Positions 13,614 to 35,342 of a stretch of 41,127 bases of DNA are shown one piece after another. Source of the DNA: Rufibacter ruber (GTDB lineage: Bacteria; Bacteroidota; Bacteroidia; Cytophagales; Hymenobacteraceae); contig NZ_LRMM01000044.1 of NCBI RefSeq assembly GCF_001647275.1, forward strand, positions 1 through 41,127. The letters are read 5' to 3'. The position numbers and the translations under genes were made by a program. The notes beneath the pieces were generated by a model that saw only the letters and a list, made by a program, of their open reading frames with translations, made no database searches and was not told the DNA's origin. Numbering within the stretch: position 1 is the first letter of the stretch; the number at the start of each line of letters is the position of its first letter.

Positions 13614-14477
13614 CTATTGCTTCCCTACAATATCAATTCTCTCGCCGCCTTGCTGAATATTGGCGGTGGGCGTGACCACAATGTATTGGGCATCTGGGCA
13701 GCGCATGTCGGTGAGGCGGGCGGGGGGCATGGGCACTTGCAGATCACCGCGGTGCAGGGTGGTGTAGAGCCATTCAGAACCTGTGACCTTGGCCGTGGTG
13801 GCCTGGGCGGGTTTGCCTTCGTTGCGCACCTGGTCAATGGCGTTCACGCGTTTGAACTGGCGCTTGGCGTCTGGGGTGAAGCCTTCGGCGTCAAAGTCCA
13901 CCTCGAAGCGTTTCTTGGGGTGTTTCCCGGCATCGGCAATGACCATGCGCAGTTTCTGGGGCGCCACCATCACCACCGACATTTGAATGGTGTCTCCCGG
14001 GTGCCAGGTGTAATGCTCCACGTTGGGCGGGTTGTTCCAAACCTTCGTGCGCCAGAACGGCCGCCAGGCAATGCGTTGGGCGCTGGTTTTGCCGGTGGCT
14101 TTGTCTACGGAGAACGTCCAGGTCATGCCCGCGTCTACCTCATAATGCCCACCGGCGTTGCCGCCCATGTAAATAGAGAAATTATCTAGCGGCAGGTTGT
14201 TGCGCTGGCTGTCTAGGCGGTTGGGGTCGGTGGAGGGGTGCCCCAGGACCACTACGCCCGTAATGCCCGTCCAGGTGTCATAACTGCTCACCACCTTGCG
14301 GTAATAAGCCCCGGGGAAACAGGGAATGGAGGCTTCCGGAGGAATTTCGCCGGCAATTTTCTGGTCTTGAGCGCCGCCATTAGACGTAGAGGAAGACGAG
14401 GTGCTTTTGCAGCCCAGCACAGAGACGAAGAGGAGGCCAAGGGCCACTTTCTTCAGCGGTTGAATACGCATACGCAT
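13614..14477 (-). CDS. Lipoprotein of unknown family, last gene of the amino-sugar block
   Basis: 287 residues. The signal MRMRIQPLKKVALGLLFVS is followed by the lipobox VLGC (Cys about residue 23) and a serine-rich linker (KSTSSSSTSNGG) typical of exported lipoproteins. The mature part has alternating hydrophobic and aromatic residues (NFSIYMGGNAGGHYEVDAG, TWTFSVDKATGK, WHPGDTIQMSVV), suggesting an all-beta, carbohydrate-binding-like fold. I do not recognise a family. It lies 124 bp downstream of the GH20 gene with a palindrome copy between. Its place suggests a surface or periplasmic glycan-binding or lyase-type protein, but no catalytic motif is visible. Either ATG (codon 1 or 3) could be the start. 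Confidence 0.7.
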   Translation of the reverse strand: MRMRIQPLKKVALGLLFVSVLGCKSTSSSSTSNGGAQDQKIAGEIPPEASIPCFPGAYYRKVVSSYDTWTGITGVVVLGHPSTDPNRLDSQRNNLPLDNFSIYMGGNAGGHYEVDAGMTWTFSVDKATGKTSAQRIAWRPFWRTKVWNNPPNVEHYTWHPGDTIQMSVVMVAPQKLRMVIADAGKHPKKRFEVDFDAEGFTPDAKRQFKRVNAIDQVRNEGKPAQATTAKVTGSEWLYTTLHRGDLQVPMPPARLTDMRCPDAQYIVVTPTANIQQGGERIDIVGKQ

Positions 14478-14551
14478 GGTAAGTTTGAGGATGTAAAAGG
14501 GTTATATAATTAGTTTGATGCTGATGATTTGACGGGCAGAAACCTCTTCCC

Positions 14552-14594
14552 GTTTCTGACCTGTTTTTCTGAAAACAGGCCCAAAACAGGAAAC
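14552..14594. repeat. Dispersed CTGTTTT palindrome, copy 7 (imperfect)
   Basis: The core ACCTGTTTTTCTGAAAACAGG pairs over 8 bp. Outer GTTTC/GAAAC ends are kept, but the left arm lacks several bases present on the right. It lies in the gap after the GH20 gene. Confidence 0.7.
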
Positions 14595-14601
14595 ATACTA
14601 G

Positions 14602-16493
14602 TTACTTCCTTACCCGTTTCTCCACCTCAGACAGCGGCAAGTTAATCTCGCGGCCCACCCGTTTGCCGTGGCGGTAACTCACCACCCTGATGTGGTGCGC
14701 CCCCTTGGGGATGTCCAGCGGTTGGCCCTGGTATTTGGGGTAGAACTTGTCTGGGTTGGAGTCGTCAAAGGTGTAGTACATTTCAATGTCTTTGATCTCT
14801 GAGGAAAGCACCACTTGGAGAGCACCTGAACTGTCTTTCACCCCCGAGACAATGGGCTCATAGAAATGGGTGGCGTAGTTTACCTGCGCCGAGTCCAGCC
14901 GCGGCAAATGGGCTTCCAGGCGCGGAATGAAGTTCTCCCACTGGCGTTTGGGTTGGGGCGTCCAGAAGACTTCGGCCAGGGAAAGGGCGCGGGGCCAGGT
15001 CATAGATTGCAGCTTCCGCTCGTGGGCTACCTGTTCGGTCCAGAGACTCCCCTGCCCGCCCAGAATATTGGCGGCATTGGCTTCCAGGGGAACAGGGTTC
15101 CAGTTGTAGGTGGCATTGAGGCGGGTAACGGTGAAGGGGCCGTTCTCCAGGTAAGGGTCTCCCTGGTAAAAATCCAGGTAGGTGTTGAAGGCGGGCGTCA
15201 TGACTACTTTATGGCCCTGCTGCGAGGCGGCAATACCGCCTTTCATGTCTTTCCAGCTCATGACCGCCATGTTGGGGGCCAAACCGCCCTCCAGTTTCTC
15301 GTACCAGCCCATGGGTTTCTTGCCTTTGCTTTGGATGATGCGGGCCAGCCGTTTCAGGAAATAAGTCTGCAGCTCCTCAGAGTTTTTGAGGCCTTCGGTT
15401 TTGATGCGTTGCTGGCATTTGGCGCATTTGTCCCAGTAAGACCGGGTTACCTCATCGCCGCCCATGTGCAGGTACTCGCCGGGGAACAGCTGGGCCAGCT
15501 CAGAGAAGACTTTCTCCAGCTCCGTAAAGGTAGAATCATTCCCGATGCACAGCACGTTGGTACGCTGGGGGTTCCAGGGATCACCGGCCAGCACCTGCTG
15601 CGGCGTCTGGGTGCAGGACAGGTTGGGATAAGACGCGATCAAGGCGAGGCTGTGGCCGGGTACGTTTACCTCAGGCACAATGGTCACAAAACGTTCTTCC
15701 GCATAGCGGATAATCTCTTTGATGTCTTCCTGGGAGTAAAAGCCGCCGTCTGTTGCGGGCTCACCGGGCTCGGGGGCCTTGAAGCCTTTCCAGTAGCCGG
15801 TGCGGGGCACGCGCCAGGCACCTACCTGGGTCAGTTTGGGCAGGCTTTTGATTTCCACGCGCCAGCCCTGGTTGTCGGTTAAGTGCCAGTGGAACGTGTT
15901 GAGCTTGTATTTGGCCATCTGGTCTATGTAGGCCATGATCACTTCCTTGGGAAAGAAATGGCGGCTCACGTCTACCATGAGCCCGCGCCAGGCCAACCGG
16001 GGGTAATCTTTGATCTTCACCCCGGCAATCTCCCAGCGCACGCCAGCCACCGTCTGCTTACTCTCTACCGCGGGCGGCAACAGTTGCAGCAGTGTCTGAA
16101 TACCGTACGAACCACCCGGCGGGCGTTGGCCTGAAGCAGGATAGCCTGCGGCGTTACTTCCAGCGTGTACCCCTCGGGTCCTAATTCTGGCTGAGGCTGC
16201 GGGAACAGCTGGAACTGAATACTGTTTTTCTTTCGGTCACCCACTTTTACGGGCAGCGCAAAACCGGTAGGCACCTGCAAACGCTGTGACAGGAGCTGCG
16301 CCACCCCAAGATGGGCCTCGTGCCCCTTCGGCAGTACAATAACGGTTTTGGCAGTGAGTTCAAACGCGCCCTTGGTCTGCGCTACCTGCACCAGCTCCGG
16401 AATCAGGGCCAAGGCGGGGGCGGGCTTGGCTTTTTGGGCGAAAACAGAGGAGCTGACCAGTACCAACAGAAGCAGAAAGCCAATTTTAGACAT
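14602..16493 (-). pseudogene. GH20 beta-N-acetylhexosaminidase, interrupted by a one-base frameshift
   Basis: The N-terminal part begins MSKIGFLLLLVLVSSSVFAQ (signal peptide; ATG at 16493). It contains the GH20b-like small domain (FELTAKTVIVLPKGHEAHLG to GYTLEVTPQAILLQANA) and then loses frame. The next frame carries the catalytic TIM barrel: GLMVDVSRHFFP, YKLNTFHWHLTDNQGWR, and the HMGGDEV Asp-Glu pair (about D347/E348 in the repaired protein). A chitobiase-like C-terminal domain follows. Restoring one base in 16115-16126 (GCCCGCCGGG on the coding strand) yields a normal NAPPGGSYGIQTLLQLLPPA junction and about 630 residues. It would release terminal GlcNAc/GalNAc in the periplasm. As with the SusD at 11.37 kb, a missing C in a GC run may be a sequencing error. 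Confidence 0.88.
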
Positions 16494-16569
16494 GCGGCAA
16501 AAGGATATCATTGGGCAAAGGGATAGCTGGGAAGAAGCAAACTCCTTCCTCCAGAGATATAGAAAATGC

Positions 16570-16605: not shown

Positions 16606-16647
16606 GGCAAGCCACTCCATGTCAGATTCAGCCGAGAGGAATTGTGT

Positions 16648-16711: not shown

Positions 16712-18166
16712 CTATTTCACCAGTTCCACGGTGGTTGGACTGTTCTTCACGCGGGACACGTGCAGCAAAGTGAACCCTAGCAGCACCACCGCCGCACCAA
16801 TGCCCACCGCATAAGAAATCTCCACTGGCAGCTGGAATCCTTCGGGGGCCACCAAAATATAGGACGTAGCCACCGCCGTCATGAACACCGCCGGCACCAG
16901 TGAAATCCAGTACTGTTTCTTCTCCCTGATGAGGTACGCCGTCACTACCCACAGCACCACCGTGGCCAGAGACTGGTTTGTCCAGGCGAAATAACGCCAC
17001 ACCACCCCAAAATCAATGAGGGTAAGAGCGTAGCCGGCGGCAAAAAGGGGAATGCAGATGAAGATTCGGTTTTTGAACGGCCCCTGGTCAGACTTCAGGA
17101 AATCTGCCACAATGAGGCGGGCACTTCTAAAGGCGGTGTCGCCGGAGGTGATCGGCGCAGCCACCACCCCTAATAAGGCCAGAATACCGCCCACTTTGCC
17201 CAGCAGTGAGTTGGAGATTTGGCTCACTACCCAGGCCGCGTTTCCGTTCTGCTGGGTCATGACCTCGTTCAATTCACGTACGCCGCCAAAGAAACTCATA
17301 CTGATGGCCGCCCAGATCAAGGCTACCACGCCCTCAGTGATCATGGCACCGTAGAAAATACTGCGGCCCTGTTTCTCATTGGTCATGCACCGCGCCATCA
17401 TAGGGCTTTGTGACGCATGGAACCCCGAAATGGCTCCGCAGGCCACCGTCACAAACAGCATGGGAAACAGCGGAAACTTGTCGGGGCTGGTGTGTTGGTT
17501 GTACAGACTATCCCAGGTGACCTCGGGCACGTGCAGCCCGTCTTTGAACATGACCAGGGAGATGCCCACCGCCATAAACAGCATGGCCACCCCAAACAGC
17601 GGGTACAGTTTGCCAATGAGTTTGTCAATGGGCAAAATGGTAGACAGGAAATAATACCCAAAAATAATCCAGACCCACATGGTCACGCCGCCGCCGGCGT
17701 TTCCGGAGATGTCGTTCAGGATCTTGGCGGGCCCCATGATGAACACAGCGCCCAGCATGATCATGAGAATGATGGTGAACACGCGCATGAACTGTTTCAT
17801 GCCGTTGCCCAGGTACCGGCCGGTGGTCTCGGTGATGCTCTCCCCGCCGTGCCGCAGAGACAGCATTCCGGAGAAATAATCATGCACGCCTCCGGCGAAG
17901 ATAGAGCCCAGCACAATCCAGAGGAAGGCAGACGGCCCCCACATGGCCCCGGCCACCGCCCCGAAGATGGGCCCCAACCCGGCTATGTTCAGGAACTGAA
18001 TGAGGAAAATCTTCCAGCGCGGCAGCGGCACATAGTCTACCCCGTCTTGCATAGAAATAGCAGGGGTAGGCCGGTTAGGGTCTATCACAAAGATGCGCTC
18101 CACTACTTTAGAGTACACCAGATAGCCTACTACCAGAACCACCACGGCAACAAAAAATGAAATCAT
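16712..18166 (-). CDS. cstA: CstA-family (carbon starvation) membrane transporter, short form
   Basis: 484 residues from ATG 18166 (MISFFVAVVVLVVGYLVYS). The longer open frame upstream would run through a palindrome copy and is not credible. About 13-15 hydrophobic helices. CstA-type motifs include IDPNRPTPAISMQDGVDYVP, WKIFLIQFLNIAGLGPIFGAVAGA, HDYFSGMLSLRHGG and GFHASQSPMMAR. The E. coli CstA and BtsT proteins (about 700 residues) import peptides or pyruvate; this is the shorter form. It follows the epimerase gene after 130 bp with a palindrome between. Its place in a glycan locus is unusual: it could take up pyruvate or peptides released with the sugar, or be unrelated cargo. Confidence 0.9.
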   Translation of the reverse strand: MISFFVAVVVLVVGYLVYSKVVERIFVIDPNRPTPAISMQDGVDYVPLPRWKIFLIQFLNIAGLGPIFGAVAGAMWGPSAFLWIVLGSIFAGGVHDYFSGMLSLRHGGESITETTGRYLGNGMKQFMRVFTIILMIMLGAVFIMGPAKILNDISGNAGGGVTMWVWIIFGYYFLSTILPIDKLIGKLYPLFGVAMLFMAVGISLVMFKDGLHVPEVTWDSLYNQHTSPDKFPLFPMLFVTVACGAISGFHASQSPMMARCMTNEKQGRSIFYGAMITEGVVALIWAAISMSFFGGVRELNEVMTQQNGNAAWVVSQISNSLLGKVGGILALLGVVAAPITSGDTAFRSARLIVADFLKSDQGPFKNRIFICIPLFAAGYALTLIDFGVVWRYFAWTNQSLATVVLWVVTAYLIREKKQYWISLVPAVFMTAVATSYILVAPEGFQLPVEISYAVGIGAAVVLLGFTLLHVSRVKNSPTTVELVK

Positions 18167-18296: not shown

Positions 18297-19481
18297 TTAA
18301 CGGGCTAATACAATCTCTGGCTGCGCAGGCACATTCTCCAGCGTCTTGTACACCTGGTACAGGCCGCGCGGAATATGGAAACAGCCTTTCCACTTGCCGC
18401 CTTTGAGCGGCAGCAATACCTCATTGCGGCGGTTCAGGTAGCCGAACCACTCGCCGTACTGCTCATCTCTGAAGTTGCTCCAGGTGTAGTCATGCAGTTT
18501 GTCAAACCATTTCTGGCAACGCTCATCGCCGGTCACGGCGTAGGCTTTGGCCATGCACACCAGCGCCTCTACGTGCGGCCACCAGAGTTTCTGGTCCCAC
18601 TCCAGCTGCTGCGGCGGATACCCTTTGATGTCTTTGAAGTACAGCAGACCGCCAAACTCGTTGTCCCAGCCGTAGTCCAGGGCGTTGAGGGCAATCTCCA
18701 CGGTGCGGTTCACCAGGGCTTTGTCTCCCTGGCGCACCGCCAGGTCCATGATGAACCACATGGCCTCAATGATGTGCCCGGGGTTGATGACACGGCCCTC
18801 AAAACAGTCGGCAAACGAACCGTCTGGCGACACGTTCTCCAGAATAAGGCCGCTTTCTTCATGGTAGAACACGTTCATCACCTCATGGATGATCTCCTGG
18901 CTAAGTGTCTCAATGAGGCTCTTGTCCAGCAGGTGCTCCATCTCCAAAGACAGGTTGCTCAGAATCATGGGCAGCGAGAAGTTGCGTAGGTTCCGGGTGC
19001 CGGGGTACGCTTTGCTGTATTTGCCTTTGGGGTTCTGGCGGCGGTCCAGAATGTTCTGGAAGGTTTTCTTCGCAATGTCAGCGTATTCGTCTTCGGGCTT
19101 GATTTTGTAGAGCGCCCCAAAGCCCATGGCGGCAAAACAGTCTGAGAAGATGTTGTACGGCTGCACCAGCGGCTGGCCCTGCTGGTTCAGGGAGAAATAG
19201 AAATTGCCTTCGGCGTCACGGCCGTGTTTCTTGAGGAATTCGGCGCCGTGTACGGCCATGTCCAGCCACTCGGGGCGCTGCTCCACCTTGTCATAGAGCA
19301 TGGAGAACATCCAGGTTTCGCGGCCCTGTAGCCAGATGAATTTATCTGTATCAAATACGTTCCCGAATTGGTCTAAGCAGGTGAAAAATCCGCCGTGTTG
19401 CTCATCCTTAGAATGCTTCATCCAGAAGGGGATGACATTCTCCAATAACTCCTGCTTGTACAGCGTAGAATAGTGATTCAT
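18297..19481 (-). CDS. AGE-family epimerase, RENBP-type N-acylglucosamine 2-epimerase
   Basis: 394 residues, no signal peptide, so cytoplasmic. The N-terminal region (HGGFFTCL, then KFIWLQGRETWMFSMLY, about residues 28-65) closely resembles the mammalian RENBP/GlcNAc 2-epimerase pattern HGGFFTCL...YVWLQGRQVWM. The AGE motif NPGHIIEAMWF (H about 236) and LWWPHVEAL are also present, giving the (alpha/alpha)6-barrel histidines. The likely reaction is GlcNAc-ManNAc interconversion; ManNAc is what sialic-acid aldolase releases. Cellobiose epimerase and mannose isomerase belong to the same fold but lack this N-terminal match. It lies 11 bp after the DUF4434 gene, clearly one operon. This is the best clue that the locus handles N-acetylated amino sugars. 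Confidence 0.9.
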   Translation of the reverse strand: MNHYSTLYKQELLENVIPFWMKHSKDEQHGGFFTCLDQFGNVFDTDKFIWLQGRETWMFSMLYDKVEQRPEWLDMAVHGAEFLKKHGRDAEGNFYFSLNQQGQPLVQPYNIFSDCFAAMGFGALYKIKPEDEYADIAKKTFQNILDRRQNPKGKYSKAYPGTRNLRNFSLPMILSNLSLEMEHLLDKSLIETLSQEIIHEVMNVFYHEESGLILENVSPDGSFADCFEGRVINPGHIIEAMWFIMDLAVRQGDKALVNRTVEIALNALDYGWDNEFGGLLYFKDIKGYPPQQLEWDQKLWWPHVEALVCMAKAYAVTGDERCQKWFDKLHDYTWSNFRDEQYGEWFGYLNRRNEVLLPLKGGKWKGCFHIPRGLYQVYKTLENVPAQPEIVLAR

Positions 19482-19492: not shown

Positions 19493-20428
19493 TTAGCGTA
19501 AGCTCTGTAAGTACTCTTTGTATCTGTTGTAAAGGTGGCCCGCCTGCAAATACGCGCTCTGGGGACTCATGAAATGTGAAAACTCAAACGTGATGGCCTT
19601 GTCATACCCGGCTTTGCGGGCGGCCTCCAACTTCAGGCGCAGCTTCTCAAACTTGATGGGCAGGAACTTGATGGGCATGTCACGGTCAAAGCTCTCAGCG
19701 TTGGTCCAGCACTGCAGGCCAAACTGGTCGGCCATTTTCTTGTTCACGGCGAAGAAATCTTCCAACTCATGGTAGTCAATGTGCCCGTCCTGGAAAGCCA
19801 CCGCGTCTACTGATCCATGTAGACCAGAGAAGATCTCGCTCCACTCCTCCTCGTGCTGGCGCAGTGAGACCGCGTCTTCTTTGGAGAGTTGCGAGGTAGC
19901 CGCCATCACGGCTTTTTTGCCATCTATCCAGGGCGAGATGAACGTGGGCAGCCCGCCACTCACGTCTTTGCACTGCTGGCCCAGTGTTCTGAAAGCCTCC
20001 GTGGCGCCTTTGGTCTTGCGGCTGATTTCCATGCTCAGGTACCAACCCCCGAAGCTCTTGAAATGGCCATACTGTTTCCAGACTTCGTCAATGACGTAGC
20101 GGTTGGCGTCAATCTCAGACTGCAGGTTACCGGTATCCCAGTAATGGCCGCTGTCATACAACCCGAAGTAGAATTTCAAGCCGTGTTTCTCGGCCAGTTC
20201 CAGGTACATCTGCACCAGGTCTACCGGCGGCTCATAGCACCCGAAGTTCTGCTGCAGATAGGCAGACGGATAAGTTATAAATCGGCGGTAGCCGCTCCTG
20301 ATCATGATGACCGTGTCAATGCCCACGGCTTTCATGTACCCGAAATCGCGGTCCCACTCTTCGCGGCCCCAGTTCTGGTGCGGGATGTCGTGGGAGATTT
20401 CGTCTATAAAGGTTCCGGTAATCTTCAT
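19493..20428 (-). CDS. DUF4434 TIM-barrel glycosidase-like protein
   Basis: 311 residues with no signal peptide: it begins MKITGTFIDEISHDIPHQNW directly in the fold. Features of DUF4434 are EEWDRDFGYMKAVGIDTVIMIRSGYR (about 24-48), FYFGLYDSGHYW near residue 87 and GWYLSMEIS (E near 133). Late acidic strand ends are HIDYHELEDF and WTNAESFDRD. The layout fits an (alpha/beta)8 glycoside hydrolase with carboxylates at strand C-termini. No activity is proven for the family. Lack of an export signal while its neighbours are exported or cytosolic sugar enzymes suggests action on an imported oligosaccharide, if it is an enzyme. It lies between an SGNH hydrolase (58 bp) and the epimerase (11 bp). Confidence 0.75.
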   Translation of the reverse strand: MKITGTFIDEISHDIPHQNWGREEWDRDFGYMKAVGIDTVIMIRSGYRRFITYPSAYLQQNFGCYEPPVDLVQMYLELAEKHGLKFYFGLYDSGHYWDTGNLQSEIDANRYVIDEVWKQYGHFKSFGGWYLSMEISRKTKGATEAFRTLGQQCKDVSGGLPTFISPWIDGKKAVMAATSQLSKEDAVSLRQHEEEWSEIFSGLHGSVDAVAFQDGHIDYHELEDFFAVNKKMADQFGLQCWTNAESFDRDMPIKFLPIKFEKLRLKLEAARKAGYDKAITFEFSHFMSPQSAYLQAGHLYNRYKEYLQSLR

Positions 20429-20486: not shown

Positions 20487-21191
20487 TTACAGGTATTTTT
20501 TTTCTTTCAGGTACTGCACCCACATGGGGTAGGCCGCGTCTGTGACGTGGATGCCATCCAGCGAGTACTCTTTCTTGAGCTGGCCGCTGGCATCTGCGAA
20601 GATTGGGTGCAGGTTAATGTAAGTGAGTTTGTGCTTTTTAGCGAAGGCCTGGAGCTGCGTGTTCAGGCTGGTCACCGCCGGGTTCAGGTTTTTCAGGTAA
20701 TCTGGCTTGAGCATGTCATCCAGCAGCGGCAGCACGCTCTGCACGTACAGCTTGGTCTTAGGCGACTGTTGTTTCACGCGCCGTACCAGCCGTTCATAGT
20801 TCTGCAAAATGATGGCCTCCGGAATGCGGCGCGACAAATCATTGATGCCGATGAGCAGGAAAATCTTCCTGGGTTTGGCCGCTAAAATGTCATCCAGCCT
20901 TGCCAGAACACCGTGCGTGATGTCGCCGCCAATGCCGCGGTTGGCCACCGGCACGCCCGGCAGCAACTCCGCCCACTTGCCCCGCGCCGTGATGCTGTTG
21001 CCCAGAAACACAATGGCGTTCTTGGGAATGGGCTGCGCGCTGAATTCTTTCATGCGCAGCTCATAGTGCGGGTTCACGTAATTGCTGTCAATCCTGGTGG
21101 TTTGGGCAAAACCGTTCAGGGCAAGCGAGCAGCAAAGGGCACCTAACCCGGCTTTAAGTATTTGTTTTAACCGAACCATTGGTTGTCTCAT
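20487..21191 (-). CDS. SGNH/GDSL-family hydrolase (first listed of two paralogues)
   Basis: 234 residues (or 230 from the ATG at 21179). A signal peptide ends near LALNGFAQ. All four SGNH blocks are visible: FLGNSITA (Ser nucleophile, block I), NRGIGGD (Gly, block II), LLIGINDL (Asn, block III) and SLDGIH (Asp-x-x-His, block V). The closest functional class is secreted carbohydrate esterase/acetylhydrolase that strips O-acetyl groups from sugars. The paralogue lies directly upstream in the operon, separated by 149 bp containing two palindrome copies. Specificity is inferred from context, not proven. Confidence 0.88.
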   Translation of the reverse strand: MRQPMVRLKQILKAGLGALCCSLALNGFAQTTRIDSNYVNPHYELRMKEFSAQPIPKNAIVFLGNSITARGKWAELLPGVPVANRGIGGDITHGVLARLDDILAAKPRKIFLLIGINDLSRRIPEAIILQNYERLVRRVKQQSPKTKLYVQSVLPLLDDMLKPDYLKNLNPAVTSLNTQLQAFAKKHKLTYINLHPIFADASGQLKKEYSLDGIHVTDAAYPMWVQYLKEKKYL

Positions 21192-21297: not shown

Positions 21298-21342
21298 AAT
21301 TCCGTTTCGCTGTTTTATGAAAAACAGCCCGAAAACGGAATT
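21298..21342. repeat. Dispersed CTGTTTT palindrome, copy 12
   Basis: Outer AATTCCGTTT pairs with AAACGGAATT and inner CTGTTTT with AAAACAG. The outer end AATTCCG/CGGAATT is unique to this copy yet complementary. It overlaps the stop codon (21341-21343) of the upstream SGNH gene by two bases. Confidence 0.85.
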
Positions 21343-22027
21343 ACAGGGCTTTCGCCAGTTTCAGCTGGTTCACCCACTTGATGTACGCCACCAGCTTGAG
21401 GTGAATGCCGTCTGTGGTCAACTCCTTGTCCAGTTGCCCCTGTGCATCGGTCAGGGCCGGGTGAAGGTCCAGGAACGGAACCTGCAGCTGCTCGGCCAGC
21501 CTCTTCAGCTCTTGATTTAAGGCCGAGATGCGCGCCAGCGTCACATGCTGGTAGGCGGTGCTCAACAGGCTTTCATTCACCGGCAGCACGCTTTGCAGGT
21601 ACACCCTGGTTTTAGGCGATTCTGCTTTGATGCGCTGCAAAATGCGGCGGTGGTTTTGCGCAATCATGGCTGGGTCTATGCCACGTTTGAGGTCATTCAC
21701 GCCAATGAGCAGGAACACCTTGGCGGGTTTGGAGGCCAGCACCTCGTCTAGCCGGGCCAGCACGCCCCAGGTCACGTCCCCGCTAATGCCCCGGTTCACC
21801 ACCGGTTTGCACGGCACCAGCTCCTGCCACTCCCCCGCCTCGGTGATGGAGTTGCCCAGAAAGACAATCTCCTTCTTATGGTTCGGCATTTGCCGAAAGA
21901 AATCCAGGCGCATGCGGTAATGGCTGTTGGCGTAGCTGCTGTCAATTTTGGCAGGTGCCTGGGCAAACGCCTCCACAGCAAAGAGCACCCCCAGCAGCAT
22001 AAGAAGATAGAATACCTTTCTAGCCAT
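21341..22027 (-). CDS. SGNH/GDSL-family hydrolase (second paralogue)
   Basis: 228 residues with signal peptide MARKVFYLLMLLGVLFAVEAFAQ. The SGNH blocks are FLGNSITEAGEW, NRGISGD, LLIGVNDLKRG and TTDGIHL, so the catalytic set is complete. It is similar in length and layout to the neighbouring SGNH protein (both start their mature part with KIDSSYAN / RIDSNYVN and HYRMRLDFF / HYELRMKEF), which shows a tandem duplication. The start codon lies 4 bp after the symporter stop, indicating translational coupling. Two copies may act on different acetyl positions of one glycan, or one on glycan and one on a peptidoglycan-like sugar. Substrate unproven. Confidence 0.88.
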   Translation of the reverse strand: MARKVFYLLMLLGVLFAVEAFAQAPAKIDSSYANSHYRMRLDFFRQMPNHKKEIVFLGNSITEAGEWQELVPCKPVVNRGISGDVTWGVLARLDEVLASKPAKVFLLIGVNDLKRGIDPAMIAQNHRRILQRIKAESPKTRVYLQSVLPVNESLLSTAYQHVTLARISALNQELKRLAEQLQVPFLDLHPALTDAQGQLDKELTTDGIHLKLVAYIKWVNQLKLAKAL

Positions 22028-27171: not shown

Positions 27172-28866
27172 TTAATTCCAGCCGGTGTTTTGGCTGAGGG
27201 TTTTGCTCAGGTCACGCTCGCGCTGCGGAATAGGCAACAGGTAATGCTTGGCCTCAAAGAGGCGGTTGTCCCGCTTGAAGCGCAGGGCCGCAGAAGCCGT
27301 ATAGTCTGGAATGCTGTTCAGGTCGTGCTTATCTGTGAGTTTGAAGTTTGGCGTGGCCGGTACGTTGGCGGGGTTCAGCGCGGCCCCGTACACCGGCCCC
27401 GGCATCACCAGCTCAGCGATCTGCCAGCGGCGGATGTCAAACCACCGGAACCCTTCTAACGCCAGTTCCACGGTACGCTCCCGGCGCACCAGTTCCTGCA
27501 GTTCCCGCTGGTTGCCCGCAATAGAGGCATCCACATTTGGCTGACCAGCTCTGGCACGCACTTTATTGAGCGCGTCAATGACTGTATTGTCTATCTGGCC
27601 CAATTCAATTTTGGCCTCAGCGTAGGTGAGCAGAATCTCGGCGTAGCGCATAAAGATCCAGCTTACCTTGGAGGTGAAGAGGGTTTCATCTGAGAAGCTG
27701 TATTTGGCCCACAGGTACCCAACCCCGTTTTTCACCGGCCCAAACGCGTTAGAGAAGTCACCGTTGGTTCTAGTCACCCAGGCCCCGTTTTCCAGGAAAT
27801 TGGTTTTGTCACTGTAAATGTTGAAAACGGCGGTTTGCTTGTTCTCTGTGATGGTATCACCGTTCATGACCACCGTGTATTTCAGGCGCTTGTCTCGGTT
27901 AAGACGCGGTTTGGAAGAATCATACACCTGTGACTCGTCTATCCGTTTGCCGTCTTTGCCTTCAAACATGTCTACCAACCGCTGGGTAGGGAAACGGCCT
28001 GACTGCCCGCCCAAGCTTCTGGACCCGTGGCCCAACGGCACATAGGTAATGGAATTGGTGTACGCATCTGAGTAGAGGAGCTCAAACATGATCTCCTTGT
28101 TCACATTAGCTTTCTGCCCCGCCGTAGTAAACAGATCCTGGAACTTGGGGTTGAGATCTAATCCGGCATTTGCCATCACTAACTGAGCACTGGCGGCAGC
28201 CGTCTCGTAGTCTTTGTTGTAAAGCGCAATTCTGGCTTTGAGGCCATAGGCCACGGCTTTGTTGAGCCTGCCTCTTTCTTGGGTCGCCCAATTCAGGGCT
28301 GGGGCTGCCTCCTCCAGTTCTTTGTAGAGAAAGCTCACCACCTCGGCCTTGGGTGTGCGGGTCTGGGTATAGAATTCCTCCGGTGCAAGTGGCTTGGTGA
28401 TCAAAGGCACGTCTCCGTACATGAACACCAGGTGGTAATAGGCGAATGCTCTCAGCACCCGGGCCTCGGCCTGAATTCTGTTATAGGTTGCTTCCGGCAC
28501 ATTGCCCTTGCCTGCTTCCATGCCGGCAATTAGGTTGTTGGTTCTTTGTATGGTGGTATAGGCGAAATTCCATAAACTGGACACGGAACCGTTGTTCACA
28601 TCAAACACCCCGGCGGCATTGCCCTGGTTACGCTCCACCCCAATGTCGGTCCAGTGGTCAAAGAATACCTGGAACGGAACAGTGGCGCTCTCCCACCTGA
28701 TGGAACTATATGCCCCGGTGAGGCCGGCGTTCATCTCTACCTCTGTCTGCAGGAAGGTGGCCGTGGTGGGGGTATCTAATGGTACCTGGTCCAGAAAATC
28801 ATTGCAGGCAGGCAGCAAAGACATGGACAGGCACAAACTCGCTATATATAAAACCTTTTTCTTCAT
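27172..28866 (-). CDS. RagB/SusD-family nutrient-uptake lipoprotein
   Basis: 564 residues. Lipobox LPAC after MKKKVLYIASLCLSMSL, then NDFLDQVPLDTPT, the standard SusD start. Helical TPR-like SusD core: YTTIQRTNNLIAGME, RVLRAFAYYHLVFMYGDVPLI, then RYAEILLTYAEAK and RRERTVELALEGFRWFDIRRWQIAE, ending LSQNTGWN. All hallmarks are intact and in frame, unlike the SusD at 10.5 kb. It is exported to the outer leaflet of the outer membrane and forms a lid over the SusC channel. It starts 11 bp after the SusC stop, so the pair is coupled. Confidence 0.95.
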   Translation of the reverse strand: MKKKVLYIASLCLSMSLLPACNDFLDQVPLDTPTTATFLQTEVEMNAGLTGAYSSIRWESATVPFQVFFDHWTDIGVERNQGNAAGVFDVNNGSVSSLWNFAYTTIQRTNNLIAGMEAGKGNVPEATYNRIQAEARVLRAFAYYHLVFMYGDVPLITKPLAPEEFYTQTRTPKAEVVSFLYKELEEAAPALNWATQERGRLNKAVAYGLKARIALYNKDYETAAASAQLVMANAGLDLNPKFQDLFTTAGQKANVNKEIMFELLYSDAYTNSITYVPLGHGSRSLGGQSGRFPTQRLVDMFEGKDGKRIDESQVYDSSKPRLNRDKRLKYTVVMNGDTITENKQTAVFNIYSDKTNFLENGAWVTRTNGDFSNAFGPVKNGVGYLWAKYSFSDETLFTSKVSWIFMRYAEILLTYAEAKIELGQIDNTVIDALNKVRARAGQPNVDASIAGNQRELQELVRRERTVELALEGFRWFDIRRWQIAELVMPGPVYGAALNPANVPATPNFKLTDKHDLNSIPDYTASAALRFKRDNRLFEAKHYLLPIPQRERDLSKTLSQNTGWN

Positions 28867-28877: not shown

Positions 28878-31800
28878 TTAGAATTTGATGTTCATCCCGA
28901 AGGTGAATGTTTTCATGATGGGGTAGAAATCACCGGTATTGTCGTTGATCTCCGGGTCAAAACCTGGGTAGAAGTTGTCCCAGGTGAAGAGGTTCTGGGC
29001 ACTGGCGTAGAATCTCCAGGAGCTGATTTTTACTTTTTTGGTCAGTGTCTGTGGCAACGTGTAGCCCAGTACCACGTTTTTCAACCGCAGGTAAGCGCCA
29101 GACTTGATCCAGTAAGACGAAGGCCGGTAGTTAGGATTGTCAGACACATTCTTTATGCTCAGCTGTGGGTAAGCGGCCCCGGTGTTCTCAGGCGTCCAGA
29201 AGTCTTTCTGGAACTCATACATGGTACCCTGGAAGCCACCGGAGTAGAACGGCTGCACGCCGGTACCAGACATGTAGTTGTCACGCTTGCCTATGCCCTG
29301 AAAGAAAACGGTGGCGTCAAAACCTTTGTACTGGGCGGCAAAGTTGGCGCTGTACTCATACCGTGGCATAGAGTTGCCCAACACTACGCGGTCATAGGTG
29401 TCAATCACGCCGTCTGGAATTCCGTTAGGGCCGCTCACATCGCGGTACTTCACGTCACCGGGTTTGTTGCCGGTAATACGCGGAGAGGAGTTTACCTCAT
29501 CCTGGCTCTGGAACAGGCCTTCGGCGATATAGCCATAGTAAGAATTGTAGGAATAGCCCTCACGGCCAATCAGGTTTCCGGTCACGTACTCCTGCCCATT
29601 CAGGTTGGTCACCTCGTTTTTCACGTCTGAGAGGTTAGCCGTTATCTGGTAGTGGAAATCCTTGATATCATCTTTCCAGGTCACGCCCAGTTCCCAACCC
29701 GTGTTGCGCATGGTACCGGCATTCACATAAGGGGCGGCCGCACCTACGTAGTTAGGAATAGGAATGCGCTGGAGCATGTCCTCAATGTCGCGGCTGAAAT
29801 AGTCAGCGGTGATGGTGAGTTGGTTGTTCAGCAACCCAAAGTCAGCGCCTATGTCAAAGATTTTGGAGGTTTCCCACAGAATGCCCCGGTTGGGGGTATC
29901 TAACAGCACATACCCTGGGCTAACGGAGTTATTGAAGAAATAATTATAAGCATTGCCGGCGGCATAAGAAGGGTAGGTAGGATAAAAGCCAAAGGTACTG
30001 TTCCCCAGGTTCTGGTTGCCCAAAGCACCGTAAGAAGCCCTGATTTTCGCCTCATTTACTACGTTAGAGATGCCTTCCCAGAACTTCTCCTGGGAAACAC
30101 GCCAGCCGGCAGAGATAGACGGGAACATGCCCCAGCGGTTGCCATCCTGGAATCTGGAAGAGGCGTCCCAGCGGCCGTTCAGCTCCAACAGGTATTTCTC
30201 GTCATAGTTATAGGCTACGCGGCTGTAGAGAGACACCATGGTCTGGCGTCTGCCACCAGACAAAGCTATCTGTGTGGCAGGGTCGCCGCTGCTGAGGTAC
30301 GGTAGATCTGGCGTCAGCAAATTGGCACGGGACCCGTTGATGAAATTGTAGATATTGTCTTCTGTGCTAAAACCGCCCAGCAAGGTAAGATTATGTTTCC
30401 CGAAAGACTTGTTGTACGTAGCCTGCGTACGGAACAGGTCTTGCCCAATATCTGTAGACATGTCTGAGATAAAGGAGTTAGGCGGATAGAGGGTTTTCAG
30501 TTTCAGCACATTGTTTACCAAGTCCGGCTCATACACCTGGTATTGTCTGATCAGGTTGGTGCTCCGCTCATTGGCTCTGTTGATGCTGTAAGTGGCAAAT
30601 AGCTCTAGGCCTTCAATAGGAGTGTAGCGCAAGGTTCCGCTGATGATTCTGGAATTGGTGATTTTGTCATTGAACCCTGAGGCCTCAGCCTGCGCAATGG
30701 GGTTACGGTTTTCCCAGCCGGCACCGTACTCACCGGTGTTGAATCTGCCGGGCACATACGCGGGCAAACCAATGGCCTGCCGGATGAGGAACCCAGGGGA
30801 AGAATCTCCCGGCCAGGTTCTGTCACCACGGTTCATGACCAAGTCCATGGAAGCCGTCAACCCTTTGGCCAGTTCCATGTCGGTATTGAACCGGAAGTCT
30901 ATCCTTTTGTAGTTGGTGTTTTGGGTAAGTCCGTTCTGGTTAAGATAAGAACCAGAGGCAAAGGTCTTGATTTTGTCTGTGCCGCCAGTTAGGATGAGGT
31001 TATGGCTCTGCATAGCCCCGTTATTAGACAACACTTCGTCTACCCAGTCTGTATTGAAGAGAGAGAAATTGTCTGGTCCGGTAGCCTCATAGCGGGCAAT
31101 GGCATCTGTGAAAGAAGGCCGGTTGCCGTCGTTTACCTGGGCAATGTCAAAATACTTCATGTGGTCCAGGGCGTTCACCTTGTCTGGCATGTTGGTGGCT
31201 TTTTGCCAACCGGCGTACATGTTGTACTGCACGTTAATGCCCTTTGCGCTGCCCCGCTTGGTAGTAATAAGCACTACCCCGTTTGCTGCTTTTGAACCGT
31301 ATACCGCCGCCGCGGCGGCGTCTTTCAGAATAGAGATGCTTTCAATGTTGTTGGGGTCAATGGCATCTAAGCTCATCTCCACGTTGTCTACCAGCACCAA
31401 TGGATTACTGCCGGCGGCAATAGAACCTAACCCTCTGATCCGGATGGTAGGGGAATCACCGCCCGGCAAGCCGGACTGCTGCTGCACGTTTACCCCGGGG
31501 GCAATCCCCTGCAAGGCCAAACCGGTAGAGGCCACGGGGCGTTTGGTCAACTCCTGTCCTTCCACCACAGACACTGACCCGGTCAGGTTCACCTTCTTTT
31601 GGGTTCCGTACCCTACCACCACTACTTCGCCAATTTGTTTGGCGGCGTCTTTCAACACTATGGTTAATGCGCTGTTTCCCTGTACCGCCACTTCCTGTGA
31701 CTCATAGCCAATGTAATTAAATACCAGCACTGGATTTGCCTCCGTCACTTGCACATTGAAACGGCCCTCCACATCAGTAGATGAACCATTGGTGGTGCCT

Positions 31801-31976
31801 TTCACAATGACAGAGACGCCAGGCAAAGGCACTTTAGCGGCATCTGTCACGACTCCTGTCACTGTTCTACTCTGCGCCATTACGGTCACAGACGCACAGA
31901 ATATTATAAAAACGTGAAGCATAAGAGCAACAAGAAGTTTCTTGCAAATTGCCCCTCCTGGTGGGTTTACCATCAT
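28878..31976 (-). CDS. SusC/RagA-family TonB-dependent outer-membrane transporter
   Basis: 1032 residues. The first two codons are ATG; the start may be 31976 or 31973. An atypical N-terminus (MMVNPPGGAICKKLLVAL) precedes the hydrophobic signal that ends near VTVMAQS. Then a carboxypeptidase-like sandwich (RTVTGVVTDAAKVPLPGVSV), EVVVVGYGTQKKVNLTGSVSV, plug domain with VDNVEMSLDAIDPNNIESIS and SILKDAAAAAVYGSKAANG, and barrel strands to the C-terminal FTFGMNIKF. No STN domain. It is the importer of the minus-strand locus; 47 bp after the FAD enzyme and 11 bp before SusD, so part of one operon. Confidence 0.95.
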   Translation of the reverse strand: MMVNPPGGAICKKLLVALMLHVFIIFCASVTVMAQSRTVTGVVTDAAKVPLPGVSVIVKGTTNGSSTDVEGRFNVQVTEANPVLVFNYIGYESQEVAVQGNSALTIVLKDAAKQIGEVVVVGYGTQKKVNLTGSVSVVEGQELTKRPVASTGLALQGIAPGVNVQQQSGLPGGDSPTIRIRGLGSIAAGSNPLVLVDNVEMSLDAIDPNNIESISILKDAAAAAVYGSKAANGVVLITTKRGSAKGINVQYNMYAGWQKATNMPDKVNALDHMKYFDIAQVNDGNRPSFTDAIARYEATGPDNFSLFNTDWVDEVLSNNGAMQSHNLILTGGTDKIKTFASGSYLNQNGLTQNTNYKRIDFRFNTDMELAKGLTASMDLVMNRGDRTWPGDSSPGFLIRQAIGLPAYVPGRFNTGEYGAGWENRNPIAQAEASGFNDKITNSRIISGTLRYTPIEGLELFATYSINRANERSTNLIRQYQVYEPDLVNNVLKLKTLYPPNSFISDMSTDIGQDLFRTQATYNKSFGKHNLTLLGGFSTEDNIYNFINGSRANLLTPDLPYLSSGDPATQIALSGGRRQTMVSLYSRVAYNYDEKYLLELNGRWDASSRFQDGNRWGMFPSISAGWRVSQEKFWEGISNVVNEAKIRASYGALGNQNLGNSTFGFYPTYPSYAAGNAYNYFFNNSVSPGYVLLDTPNRGILWETSKIFDIGADFGLLNNQLTITADYFSRDIEDMLQRIPIPNYVGAAAPYVNAGTMRNTGWELGVTWKDDIKDFHYQITANLSDVKNEVTNLNGQEYVTGNLIGREGYSYNSYYGYIAEGLFQSQDEVNSSPRITGNKPGDVKYRDVSGPNGIPDGVIDTYDRVVLGNSMPRYEYSANFAAQYKGFDATVFFQGIGKRDNYMSGTGVQPFYSGGFQGTMYEFQKDFWTPENTGAAYPQLSIKNVSDNPNYRPSSYWIKSGAYLRLKNVVLGYTLPQTLTKKVKISSWRFYASAQNLFTWDNFYPGFDPEINDNTGDFYPIMKTFTFGMNIKF

Positions 31977-32023: not shown

Positions 32024-33886
32024 TTATTGCCCTACAGGTTGACCGTCAAAATTGATTTTCACGGCAAATGGGTTTAAGAGACGGTCTACCAGCAACGCAG
32101 CCTCGCGGCGGTTTAACTCAAGCTCAGGTGATGCGGCTCTGTTTAGTTGCAAGGCACCGTATTCAGCGGCTACTTTGTCATAAGTGACAGCAGAATTCAC
32201 TGTACCCAGAATTTCGCCCAGAAACTTGAGGGTAAGATTGGCACCTGAGGCCTGAAAGGTTTTCAAGGCTTCATAATAAGGCTTAAGGCCAGATACCAGT
32301 TCGTATTCGCTCACGGGGCGCTCTGGATAGAACCACGTTTGGTTCGCCCATTTGTACGGCAGCCCGGTTCCTTTTAAGATGCCGGTGGCGCCTATGCGTT
32401 GCAGGGCAGCAAAATGGGGATCCTGCGGCTTCACGTCAATGTACGGCATGAGGTAGGCTTTAGAATCTAACAGGGCCTGCTGCACCTCGCGTATGTTCAC
32501 ATCTTTAGGCTGCACGTTGTTTTTTAGCGCCACGGCCGCCAATGCGCCAGCCGCCTGGCCAATACCCAGCACTACCGGCTGCAGACGGGTAGCCCCGTTC
32601 ACTATGTTGGTCACCCCAATGCTCTTCTCTGCTACAATCAAACCGTCTACCCCCTGCGGAATCAATGAACCCAGGGGCACATTGTAAGAGGGCACTTTGA
32701 TTTTCACAAAGTCAATGGCGGGGGCATTGGGGTTCTTGAGGTGATGGTGGTCAATGGTATAATCCCCAACGGCTATGCCAGTACGGTAATACGCCTCTTT
32801 CTGGTCATAGGGCTTTGCGACATGCTGCAGGGCGAATTGCGCCAAGCCTTTTACCCTCCTAGACTCACGGTGGTACGGAATCATAGGGAAATCATCTTTG
32901 GTAGGGAACTCATCTTGGGCTATGCCAAAATTCCTGAACCCGAGCTCTGTCTGCAGATAATACACAAAGCGCAAGGTGTGCAGCTTGGCTTCTTTTAAAG
33001 CCTCTGCCCGCTCTGCAGGTGTTTTCTCAATAATATTCAGGTAAATATCATTCCCGCATTTAGGCCAGTTGATCATGTACTTGCCATTGGGCAGCTTGCC
33101 GTAGCCCATCATCTGGAGGCAGTTGTTGTTGGGGCCGCCGTCAGCGGCGGGGTCAGACACGTCACAGGCGCAGTCAAATTCTTTAGGGTTGTACCCCGCC
33201 GGTTTCTTAATGGTCTTGTCTACGCCCTTAGGGTATTCTTTCAAAACCACTACATACGTCATGTCTTGAATGATGTCATTGGCCTGCTCCGGGGCAAACT
33301 CCTCACCGGTCTCCTGCCTGCTGTCCATGCCAATGTCATATTTGGCACCGGCTTTGGCCATCACATCACCCAACTCTGTGGCGTCAATGATTAATTTCGC
33401 TTCTATGGTACGGGTTTTCTTACCGTTTTTCACGGTAACCGTCCACCCCGCCCCTTTTTTCTTCACATCTTGCCAGGTGGTGTTGTACCAGATGGTAAGG
33501 TTCTTCTCATTGGCCAACTCTTTAAGCATTCTGTTCCCTATGCTGGGCTCAAACAGGGTATTACTTACCCATCCTGTCTCTACCGCCGCCGGGCCGCCAT
33601 AATAGTTGTACAGTTTCTGCCGGAACTCCCCCCATAACCCAGACGGCATCTGGTGGTTGCCATCAATGGCGGCTACCCCTGCGGCCGTCAGCATGCCGCC
33701 CAGCCACTCGGTTTCCTCCACAATAAGAACTTTGGACCCCATTCTGGCGGCCTGCACTCCCGCGGTTGTGCCACTGGCACCCCCACCAATGATCAATAAA
33801 TCTGTTTTAACCTGAGCAAAGGCTGCTGGGGAGCCCAGAAAGCACAGTAACGATGCTAGAAGTATGGTTAACCTGTTTGAAAACAT
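32024..33886 (-). CDS. Secreted FAD-dependent oxidoreductase with an SLH-like C-terminal segment
   Basis: 620 residues with signal peptide MFSNRLTILLASLLCFLGS...AFAQ. A Rossmann FAD motif LLIIGGGASGTTAG (GxGxxG, about 30-43) and EETEWLGGMLTAAGVAAIDG follow, typical of the PF12831 FAD_oxidored family. The middle region has CACDVSDPAADGG and the substrate-pocket stretch DEFPTKDDFPMIPYHRESRR. Residues about 480-540 (DVKPQDPHFAALQRIGATGI, then FYPERPVSEYELV) resemble an S-layer-homology repeat, and LNRREAALLVDRLL near 590 resembles a second one. The substrate is unknown for this secreted group. As first gene of the operon and divergent from the ROK repressor, it is a key and unexplained enzyme of the locus. 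Confidence 0.85.
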   Translation of the reverse strand: MFSNRLTILLASLLCFLGSPAAFAQVKTDLLIIGGGASGTTAGVQAARMGSKVLIVEETEWLGGMLTAAGVAAIDGNHQMPSGLWGEFRQKLYNYYGGPAAVETGWVSNTLFEPSIGNRMLKELANEKNLTIWYNTTWQDVKKKGAGWTVTVKNGKKTRTIEAKLIIDATELGDVMAKAGAKYDIGMDSRQETGEEFAPEQANDIIQDMTYVVVLKEYPKGVDKTIKKPAGYNPKEFDCACDVSDPAADGGPNNNCLQMMGYGKLPNGKYMINWPKCGNDIYLNIIEKTPAERAEALKEAKLHTLRFVYYLQTELGFRNFGIAQDEFPTKDDFPMIPYHRESRRVKGLAQFALQHVAKPYDQKEAYYRTGIAVGDYTIDHHHLKNPNAPAIDFVKIKVPSYNVPLGSLIPQGVDGLIVAEKSIGVTNIVNGATRLQPVVLGIGQAAGALAAVALKNNVQPKDVNIREVQQALLDSKAYLMPYIDVKPQDPHFAALQRIGATGILKGTGLPYKWANQTWFYPERPVSEYELVSGLKPYYEALKTFQASGANLTLKFLGEILGTVNSAVTYDKVAAEYGALQLNRAASPELELNRREAALLVDRLLNPFAVKINFDGQPVGQ

Positions 33887-34109
33887 GATGCATTTTTATT
33901 TCTCCTCTAAAGTAGTAATAAAAATTATTAACCTAAAATAACTTATTAAAATTCTTTATTAAGTGGCCGTTTTTTTACGGTGTTGATAAAAACCAAGGAA
34001 AAGCTGGGGAGAAATTATTAATATTATCTCTTGGTTCTGCTGCTTCCTTTTTGAAGAGCTAAAAAGTAGCATTCTTATATAATATGATCTATCCACTATA
34101 TTATCTAAT
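33887..34109. promoter_or_regulatory. Divergent promoter/operator region between FAD oxidoreductase and ROK repressor
   Basis: 223 bp, very AT-rich. Likely promoters for both the minus-strand operon and the ROK gene. ATAATAT (34079-34085) and ATATTAT (34098-34104) form an inverted repeat centred about 20 bp before the ROK ATG, a possible operator, although chance is likely in such AT-rich sequence. The FAD gene is preceded on its strand by GAGGAG about 17 bp upstream, too far for a normal ribosome site. Confidence 0.4.
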
Positions 34110-35342
34110 ATGACAAAAACTTTCTTTGAGGAAATTAACAGCAATAGTCCTACTGGGGTGGCATACAAAAATGTAAACCTCAAGAAGAAGGTTATCTCTT
34201 ACTTTGCGAACACCGGTAATGCCACCATTGCAGAACTGGGGAAGGAGCTAAATCTAAGCATACCCAAGATCACCAGCCTGCTTGGGGACCTGATACAGGA
34301 TGGTCTGGTACGCGACCACGGCAAAATAGACTCTACCGGCGGCAGAAAGCCCAATGTCTATGGCCTTGCCCCAGATTCTGGCTTCTTTTTAGGGATTGAT
34401 GTGAAAAGAAACCATATCAATATTGGTCTTACTGATTTCCAGAAGAACCTGGTCAGCAGCATTGAGAAGTACGCCTACCGCCTTAGCAACAATGAGGAAT
34501 CTCTGCAGGAGCTTTGCCAGATCATCAATGACTTTATAAAAAAGCTCCCAATCCCTAAAGAAAAGATTTTAGGCATTGGCATTAACCTTACAGGGCGGAT
34601 CAACTATTCTAAAGGCTACAGCTACAGCTTTTTCCACTTCTATGAAGACCCGTTAAGCCAAGTCATAGAGTCACAGGTGGGCATCAAAGTCTTTCTGGAA
34701 AACGACTCCCGGGCCATGGCCTACGGCGAGTTCTGCTCTGGCGTAGTGAACAATGAAAAAGACGTGCTCTTTTTGAACCTGGATTACGGTCTAGGCATGG
34801 GGGTCATGATCAATGGCCAGCTTTATTATGGCAAATCAGGCTATTCTGGTGAATTTGGCCACATGCCCCTGTTCCAGAACGAGATTATTTGCAAGTGCGG
34901 CAAAAAAGGGTGTCTGGAAACCGAAGGATCAGGGTGGGCGCTTATTGAAATGTTTAAAGAGAGAATTCAGGCTGGCGCCACCACCCTTATTGCACGGGAA
35001 GGCTTTAAGCCAGAAGATCTAAAACTGGAAGACATTATAGAGGCCGCCCAGAATGATGACGTGCTGGCCATTGAACTGATTGCTAAAGTTGGTGAGAAAA
35101 TAGGCAGAGGAATTGCCCTGCTCATTAACATTTTCAACCCAGAACTGGTGATTTTAGGAGGAAGCCTCTCTTCAACAGAAGAATACATTCTGCTCCCTAT
35201 CAAGAGCGCCATTAATAAATACTCCTTGAGTTTGGTAAACAATGACACGCAGTTAAAAGTGTCAAATTTAGGTGAGGAATCTGGCGTTATTGGGGCATGT
35301 CTCCTGGTACGCCACAGATTGTTAGCCTTAGAGCATATTTAG
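34110..35342 (+). CDS. ROK-family transcriptional regulator (NagC/Mlc-like)
   Basis: 410 residues: a winged-helix DNA-binding domain (helix-turn-helix about 38-67, TIAELGKELNLSIPKITSLL) joined to a ROK sugar-sensing domain (from GFFLGIDVKRNHINIGL). The ROK zinc site is intact: H251 in GEFGHMP and CKCGKKGCLE (C261, C263, C268). Such proteins bind a sugar or sugar phosphate such as GlcNAc-6-P and release their operators. It is transcribed divergently from the 13-gene minus-strand block, the usual arrangement for its local regulator. It is most likely a repressor of that block, relieved by the amino sugar. No catalytic kinase activity is implied, because the DNA-binding domain is present. Confidence 0.92.
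   Translation: MTKTFFEEINSNSPTGVAYKNVNLKKKVISYFANTGNATIAELGKELNLSIPKITSLLGDLIQDGLVRDHGKIDSTGGRKPNVYGLAPDSGFFLGIDVKRNHINIGLTDFQKNLVSSIEKYAYRLSNNEESLQELCQIINDFIKKLPIPKEKILGIGINLTGRINYSKGYSYSFFHFYEDPLSQVIESQVGIKVFLENDSRAMAYGEFCSGVVNNEKDVLFLNLDYGLGMGVMINGQLYYGKSGYSGEFGHMPLFQNEIICKCGKKGCLETEGSGWALIEMFKERIQAGATTLIAREGFKPEDLKLEDIIEAAQNDDVLAIELIAKVGEKIGRGIALLINIFNPELVILGGSLSSTEEYILLPIKSAINKYSLSLVNNDTQLKVSNLGEESGVIGACLLVRHRLLALEHI

Follow-up and report, generated by a model that had tools for sequence, protein, structure and literature searches.

The question raised by contig NZ_LRMM01000044.1 (C106) of Rufibacter ruber is which polymer is served by a SusCD gene block that joins an amino-sugar epimerase, a NagX-like membrane protein and paired esterases to a divergent ROK regulator. 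The window analysed is this whole stretch of 41,127 nucleotides, part of a 5.5-Mb, 166-contig genome whose assembly is 98% complete, and its closest named record is Rufibacter immobilis (98% identity for the GHL10 protein). Scans of open reading frames (ORFs) with Pfam and NCBIfam, with signal peptides and lipoboxes read by eye, gave a 13-gene block on the minus strand at 13614-33886 and the ROK gene on the plus strand (Table 1). The gene content, strand and coordinates of the preliminary description hold in these scans; the block is real, and one of its 13 genes, encoding GH20, is two overlapping ORFs, that is, interrupted. Adjacent SusC and SusD genes, glycan-active enzymes and a linked regulator, the features by which a SusCD locus is recognised, are all found. 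The block probably serves, as a SusCD locus under ROK repression, to salvage a polymer rich in amino sugars and O-acylated. Over a sialoglycan, we tentatively favour as its target a polymer of the bacterial envelope (peptidoglycan glycan, a teichoic-acid-like polymer or a capsule), perhaps one with N-acetylmannosamine (ManNAc) and N-acetylhexosamine (HexNAc)-1-phosphate.

The N-acylglucosamine 2-epimerase of the block (AGE) exceeds the curated equivalog cut-off of this enzyme, with 671.4 against 600 bits, and is the single match in the whole genome; its solved relatives are 6f04, 2gz6 and 1fp3. The structural model of the GHL10 protein has Cwp19 and the glycoside hydrolase domain of PgaB as its two nearest solved folds, with other glycosidases coming after, and its DUF4985 region falls inside the range superposing on the Cwp19 TIM barrel. 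Cwp19, from C. difficile, has been linked to peptidoglycan lysis; the window protein is 23% identical to it and 12% identical to the PgaB C-terminal domain. The proposed catalytic Asp196 of Cwp19, an assignment that the Cwp19 authors themselves term conjecture, aligns with an Arg in the window protein. The DUF5009 protein carries a conserved histidine and a DxxR motif (His61, Asp33 and Arg36) invariant in 17 locus homologues, with His61 equated to His297 of HGSNAT by motif rather than by alignment. DUF5009 is described as being without experimental confirmation (PMC12423673), and on its motifs we propose that this NagX-like protein re-N-acetylates glucosamine. A NagX-like membrane acetyltransferase is shared with the NagX-containing operons for N-acetylglucosamine (GlcNAc) and glucosamine in the accessible portion of PMC9007349, and the window genome also has NagA; in contrast to those operons, the window has the DUF5009 (PF16401) branch rather than PF07786, within a SusCD polysaccharide utilisation locus (PUL) with AGE. 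The AGE score, the Cwp19 and PgaB folds of GHL10 and the NagB-type neighbours described below uphold the original proposal of a ROK-linked PUL for N-acetylated hexosamine.

That proposal had also called the gene set unusual, which a comparison of 27 mapped neighbourhoods does not support: the same set recurs in relatives, with homologous loci in Rufibacter, Pedobacter, Chitinophaga and Bacteroides-like genomes. DUF4434 served as the marker and was matched in 10 of 395 class-level genomes, in 12 of 251 genomes of the family of genome G238 (f11) and in 6 of 100 genomes at the family level (6 of 16 from the window genus and 0 of 84 others), the window genome being counted in the class- and family-level samples. 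The marker is patchy in the genus yet 95-99% identical where it occurs, a pattern suggestive of horizontal movement or of repeated losses. The 27 loci, from genome searches and named loci, are those with a called DUF4434 gene; this leaves out L007, L008, L009, L010, L011, L014 (truncated at the locus edge), L015, L016, G302, G243, G216 and G379, and G835 and G840 had DUF4434 matches outside the mapped set. Labels rest on BLAST to window proteins (some GHL10 at about 22-26% identity) or on clusters with one or two Pfam-checked members, and the counts are lower bounds, with flanks of about 17 kb or stopped by contig ends: SusC 23, GHL10 21, AGE 18, SusD 18, FAD oxidoreductase 16, ROK 13, NagX 13, sugar-porter MFS 12, DUF5018 11, SGNH 10, SSS 10, NAGPA 6, CstA 6, MetallophosNC 6, GH92 5 and GH20 5. 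A NagB-type gene adjoins AGE in G748 and DUF4434 in G253. Beside AGE in G748, a NagB fused to a PIG-L-type deacetylase domain was observed (about 640 aa; L081:9297-11216 and L145:7166-9085). All six loci with CstA belong to the Rufibacter group. The 287-aa protein holds the same position in three other Rufibacter loci and follows AGE in Pedobacter L005, and its homologues are widespread outside the locus (670 matches, some named Acidobacteriota); CstA and this protein thus look like local additions. A pyruvate symporter was rejected for the CstA protein, which missed the equivalog cut-off with 113 against 1188 bits.

The order in f11 is ROK / DUF4434 - sugar porter - AGE - SusC - SusD - DUF5018 - GHL10 - MetallophosNC - SASA esterase - GHL10 - NagX, with varying completeness. 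The nearest named homologues of the G238 DUF4434 protein are from Bacteroides, with Tannerellaceae and Prevotella names also listed, and we take f11 to be Bacteroidaceae, judging by these names. The window ROK protein is 46-48% identical to five f11 ROK proteins that adjoin DUF4434. The window DUF4434 protein matches the solved chain 4h41, which we take to be BT_0435, with an E value of 5e-166. The region BT0433-BT0454 of Bacteroides thetaiotaomicron shares with the window a ROK protein, SusCD, DUF5009 and family-10 glycosylhydrolases (two in that region) according to PMC3878776 and PMC10434189, and DUF4434 through 4h41; chain 4h41 was compared by sequence and the other BT genes by their printed names. 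In those parts of PMC10434189, BT0438-40 and 0442 are named as an alpha-N-acetylglucosaminidase, a TonB receptor with SusD, and DUF4855, BT0446-49 as DUF5009, two family-10 hydrolases and a calcineurin-like phosphoesterase, and BT0451-54 as SusD, a TonB receptor and a sugar porter. Excerpts of further papers assign BT0438 to GH89 (PMC8225759), report SusC BT_0439 in culture proteomes on galacto-oligosaccharides and human milk oligosaccharides (PMC5238430) and describe in vivo induction of the operons of this region, with inducing substrates not yet known (PMC6989115). The window block differs in having GH20 and SGNH esterases, whereas the BT0433-BT0454/f11 type has GH89, MetallophosNC and SASA, and in pairing an SSS symporter with a leaderless DUF4434 where the f11 loci pair a sugar-porter MFS with a Tat-type DUF4434. 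We judge the locus to be a ROK-linked PUL for amino sugars, one whose family can already be recognised in Bacteroides.

The regulator carries the ROK zinc motif, CKCGKKGCLE, and the DxGxT-type ATP motif is absent at GIDVKRNHINIG. A sugar kinase was rejected for this protein on the presence of HTH_24 and the absence of that ATP-binding motif. The gap between the ROK and FAD genes contains a palindrome with 0 mismatches (shuffle expectation 0), which is the sole exact site genome-wide; 11 other matches have 3 mismatches each. The totals of 5 forward and 8 reverse matches are similar to those of the reversed control (3 and 8), and the site count within this genome points to a local rather than a global regulator. 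The operator is kept in place in five further Rufibacter-group genomes (0-3 mismatches), with TACYTTRG downstream that aligns in six of six Rufibacter-group intergenic regions, and a -7 box of the TAnnTTTG-like type is predicted for the operon promoter. The conserved palindrome agrees with the ROK-linked regulation put forward earlier, and the ROK protein is predicted to bind it. Sites at 3 mismatches occur in Pseudoflavitalea L009 and the metagenome-assembled genome (MAG) L010, and L012 has none (7 mismatches). In f11, six of seven ROK gaps align on a related palindrome, with single sites weak in the AT-rich DNA; the simple shuffles that reach the best score, of 200, number 35 (G997), 0 (G853, where the best-scoring site differs from the aligned palindrome), 8, 3, 39, 38 and 134 (G230, the seventh gap).

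The DUF4434 proteins divide by leader and transporter. An RRxFLK leader of the twin-arginine translocation (Tat) type is present in 12 loci and absent from 15, the window among the latter, and a sugar-porter MFS is found in all 12 of the former and in 0 of the 15 leaderless loci, which have an SSS symporter (10), an AmpG-like MFS (2) or no transporter found (3). Import likely follows the action of DUF4434 in the Tat group and precedes it in the window locus. Of the 12 Tat loci, 10 belong to f11, one to f12 and one to a named Bacteroidales MAG; the association is thus confounded with phylogeny, and shared ancestry could account for it. All eight solved sequences that match the window SSS symporter at E<=1e-5 are sodium/glucose cotransporters (SGLT). 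AmpG identity was rejected for the alternative MFS of the relatives L005, L007 and G115; the L007 protein, the one tested, scored 111.8 against the 350-bit cut-off of TIGR00901, its best NCBIfam match, and no solved relative was found at E<=0.01. Genomes G230, G969 and G894 have two Tat-type DUF4434 paralogues per locus, which share about 75% and 60% identity with the window protein, and in L132 (the G955 locus) a second DUF4434 protein of 461 aa, GDPD, Metallophos and an ADP-ribosylglycohydrolase adjoin the core locus. In the library searched, no literature on the DUF4434 family turned up.

A second cluster on contig C145 (L142, G000:C145:35000-52000) has the Pfam order u9 - GxDLY SGNH - SGNH - GH20 - GHL10 - NAGPA, u9 having no family assigned. 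R. immobilis, R. roseus, G748 and G739 keep parts of this set immediately next to ROK, and we therefore regard the cluster as belonging to the same system, from which it has become detached. NAGPA is a phosphodiester glycosidase by family name only, with the label Pfam-checked for the C145 protein and for 2 of 12 clustered proteins of relatives, and three further NAGPA places occur in the genome. The C145 NAGPA and the GHL10 of one relative end in C-terminal Golvesin_C and Por secretion-tail domains.

Several other explanations compete with salvage of an envelope polymer. AGE-type epimerases serve sialic acid use in Bacteroides fragilis, and an AGE/RENBP-type epimerase is common to the nanLET operon of that species and the window. 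The locus could serve sialoglycans or host glycans, with AGE as the ManNAc epimerase of the sialic acid route and ROK as a NanR answering sialic acid or GlcNAc, a reading to which we give little probability. An in silico prediction by Ravcheev 2013 (PMC3878776) makes the BT0433 ROK protein a NanR for sialic acid and N-acetylglucosamine and gives it orthologues in 11 of 11 Bacteroides genomes, a SASA-family esterase occurs in five of eight f11 loci (one Pfam-checked), and the fold neighbours of GHL10 include a GH156 exosialidase. In contrast to nanLET, however, the window genome is without NanA by profile, as its sole match (117.7 against 382 bits) is assigned to DapA (282.7 against 206), and the family scan of the block found no sialidase. 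The best genome match to the one sialidase profile used, BNR_2, scores 36.8 bits on another contig, other sialidase families not having been searched, and the solved SSS relatives are SGLT proteins. The sialic acid route was rejected as the main reading on the DapA assignment and the sialidase-free block, and sialic acid is an unlikely target. Given the DapA assignment and the single AGE match in the genome, ManNAc, if it is the AGE substrate, should have another origin than sialic acid lyase. NagA and NagB are absent from the block, as first described, but are encoded elsewhere in the genome, on C125 (322 bits) and C134 (248 bits; 86% identical to the nearest among the G748 and G253 homologues), which gives no support to the idea that GlcNAc catabolism is lacking.

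These two enzymes and the GH20 of the block also fit a locus for chitin, chitosan or poly-N-acetylglucosamine (PNAG), in which GHL10 would cut a polymer of GlcNAc or glucosamine, GH20 would free GlcNAc, NagX would repair de-acetylated units and AGE would balance a GlcNAc/ManNAc pool or signal. PgaB, near the GHL10 model, is a PNAG-system protein, and the NagX family is tied to chitin operons and glucosamine use in the accessible text of PMC9007349. No GH18 or GH19 was found, though, among the scanned locus proteins, to which the search for these families was confined, and AGE, the phosphodiester-type enzymes and the paired esterases are left unexplained, which leaves this possibility doubtful. 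It seems improbable that the locus is oxidative, an exported FAD (flavin adenine dinucleotide) enzyme oxidising a sugar hydroxyl and a later enzyme such as DUF4434 cleaving, as in 3-keto-glycoside routes. The FAD gene adjoins ROK in 5 of 11 listed ROK-divergent loci, G134 is reduced to little beyond SSS-DUF4434-FAD, and the same paper (PMC9007349) proposes for lactose an oxidation in the periplasm by LacABC together with DUF1080; 11 of the 27 loci, however, are without the FAD gene within range. Its family is very large (at least 7762 matches at E<=1e-60 among 8000 candidates), and the model (pLDDT 92) fits generic FAD folds, with query TM <=0.33 among the 50 matches listed; no specific solved relative appeared by sequence or by fold. 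A function from fold was accordingly rejected, and the oxidative step that the preliminary description read from this gene is not borne out. A chance patchwork of generic PUL genes with no functional unit is hardly credible: SusCD pairs, esterases and transporters vary among relatives, and CstA and the 287-aa protein are local, but the same gene families recur jointly in several Bacteroidota families with related operator sites.

The data establish the genes, their family scores, their conserved association and the conservation of the operator inside the Rufibacter group; for the ROK-repressed amino-sugar locus we infer the enzymatic steps, the repression, the target and the inducer. At the surface, SusD and the GHL10 lipoprotein would bind the polymer and cut it, SusC would bring in the fragments, and SGNH esterases and GH20 would trim them in the periplasm. 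The NagX-like protein may re-acetylate free glucosamine with cytosolic acetyl-CoA. The SSS symporter would then deliver sugar to the cytosol, where DUF4434, here predicted to be cytosolic, would act and AGE would convert ManNAc to GlcNAc, which would pass through a kinase (not searched for in the genome) to NagA and NagB. The C145 cluster would contribute NAGPA, another GHL10, another GH20 and more esterases. Without inducer, ROK would occupy the palindrome beside the promoter.

A more specific and rather doubtful possibility is that the family is a PUL class for cell-envelope phosphoglycans that contain ManNAc as well as HexNAc-1-phosphodiester links; examples, held with equal reserve, would be capsules of sugar-1-phosphate or the teichoic-acid linkage units attached to peptidoglycan. 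Bacteroidota would in that case feed on the walls of other bacteria, both in soil and in the gut. GHL10 would cut the glycan, NAGPA and phosphoesterases (MetallophosNC, GDPD) would open phosphodiesters, SGNH and SASA would remove O-acyl groups, NagX would re-acetylate glucosamine, GH20, GH3 and GH89 would take off beta- and alpha-GlcNAc, and AGE would recover ManNAc. Judged by family names and neighbourhood, this would account jointly for AGE, NAGPA, the phosphoesterases, the esterases, NagX and GHL10. A literature search, noisy and thus weak evidence of absence, found no published PUL with this set and no teichoic-acid PUL naming such a substrate. A glycosylphosphatidylinositol-anchor target was rejected; GH92, GH89, GDPD and NagX would fit it, but AGE, NAGPA and GHL10 do not.

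Table 1. Features of the window, in order of position
Feature	Position	Strand	Support or remark
Second SusC - SusD (interrupted) - DUF5017 set	7268..13128	+	convergent with the block
287-aa lipoprotein-like protein	13614..14477	-	no Pfam family; doubtful member
GH20 beta-hexosaminidase, interrupted	14602..16511	-	GH20b 47 bits, GH20 374 bits
CstA-family transporter	16712..18166	-	PF02554 213 bits; start moved to an ATG
N-acylglucosamine 2-epimerase, AGE/RENBP type	18297..19481	-	NF052547 671.4 bits
DUF4434 protein	19493..20428	-	PF14488 283 bits; no signal peptide
SGNH esterase 2, tandem paralogue	20487..21191	-	PF13472
SGNH esterase 1	21341..22027	-	PF13472
SSS sodium:sugar symporter, SGLT-like	22032..23912	-	PF00474 98.6 bits
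DUF5009 NagX/HGSNAT-like transmembrane protein	23968..25431	-	PF16401 239 bits
GHL10 glycoside hydrolase-like protein	25684..27060	-	PF02638, TIM barrel; lipobox by eye
SusD binding protein	27172..28866	-	PF07980 172 bits
SusC TonB-dependent transporter	28878..31976	-	TIGR04056 960 bits
FAD-dependent oxidoreductase	32024..33886	-	PF12831 348 bits; signal peptide by eye; first gene of putative operon
Predicted -7 box of operon promoter	33907..33914	-	TAnnTTTG-like; downstream of operator
Predicted ROK operator	33941..33964	both, exact	palindrome CTTAWTAAA-N4-TTTAWTAAG; ROK-FAD intergenic gap
ROK-family transcription regulator	34110..35342	+	PF00480 193 bits, HTH_24; winged HTH + ROK domain

The GH20 gene is split over two frames, with GH20b in ORF 16065-16511 and the catalytic domain in ORF 14602-16080. 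Its R. immobilis orthologue is intact, a single 636-aa ORF with 97% DNA identity and 3 gap positions against the window, and the substitutions, counted separately for the three codon positions, number 9/3/35 in the catalytic part and 2/3/10 in the N-terminal one; as most fall in the third position, the interruption either arose recently or is an artefact of assembly. The second SusD (10500-12169) is likewise split, with one gap position against R. immobilis, and the finding of two frameshifts within 41 kb points to indel errors in the assembly or to decay. Pedobacter L005, Sphingobacterium L007 and Pseudoflavitalea L009 carry sets homologous to this second SusC region within the locus itself. 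For the second SusC, ROK control was rejected, the best site upstream having 5 mismatches. The tandem SGNH genes match at 72% of DNA positions over 185 nt. A 39-nt interspersed palindrome with the core CCTGTTTT-N4-AAAACAGG has 20 copies in the window (e.g. 6008-6046, 14554-14592 and 36052-36090), eight of them inside the block; exact matches to its core number 301 in this genome, compared with 2 to 210 in 15 congeners (reversed control 0), and it is an amplified element resembling repetitive extragenic palindromes (REP-like). At 1490-3140 lies a tandem PAP2 gene pair that contains a direct repeat of 242 nt, 74% identical. No Rfam family reached its gathering score within the window, and no tRNA was found there.

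New in this analysis are the operator palindrome, the link between Tat-type DUF4434 and the sugar porter, the C145 cluster and the GHL10 model nearest to Cwp19 and PgaB. A defined operator, a core gene set and a list of envelope polymers make this orphan locus experimentally tractable. If the walls of other bacteria are food for its carriers, the locus family would represent an additional feeding relationship among bacteria, in soil or in the gut.

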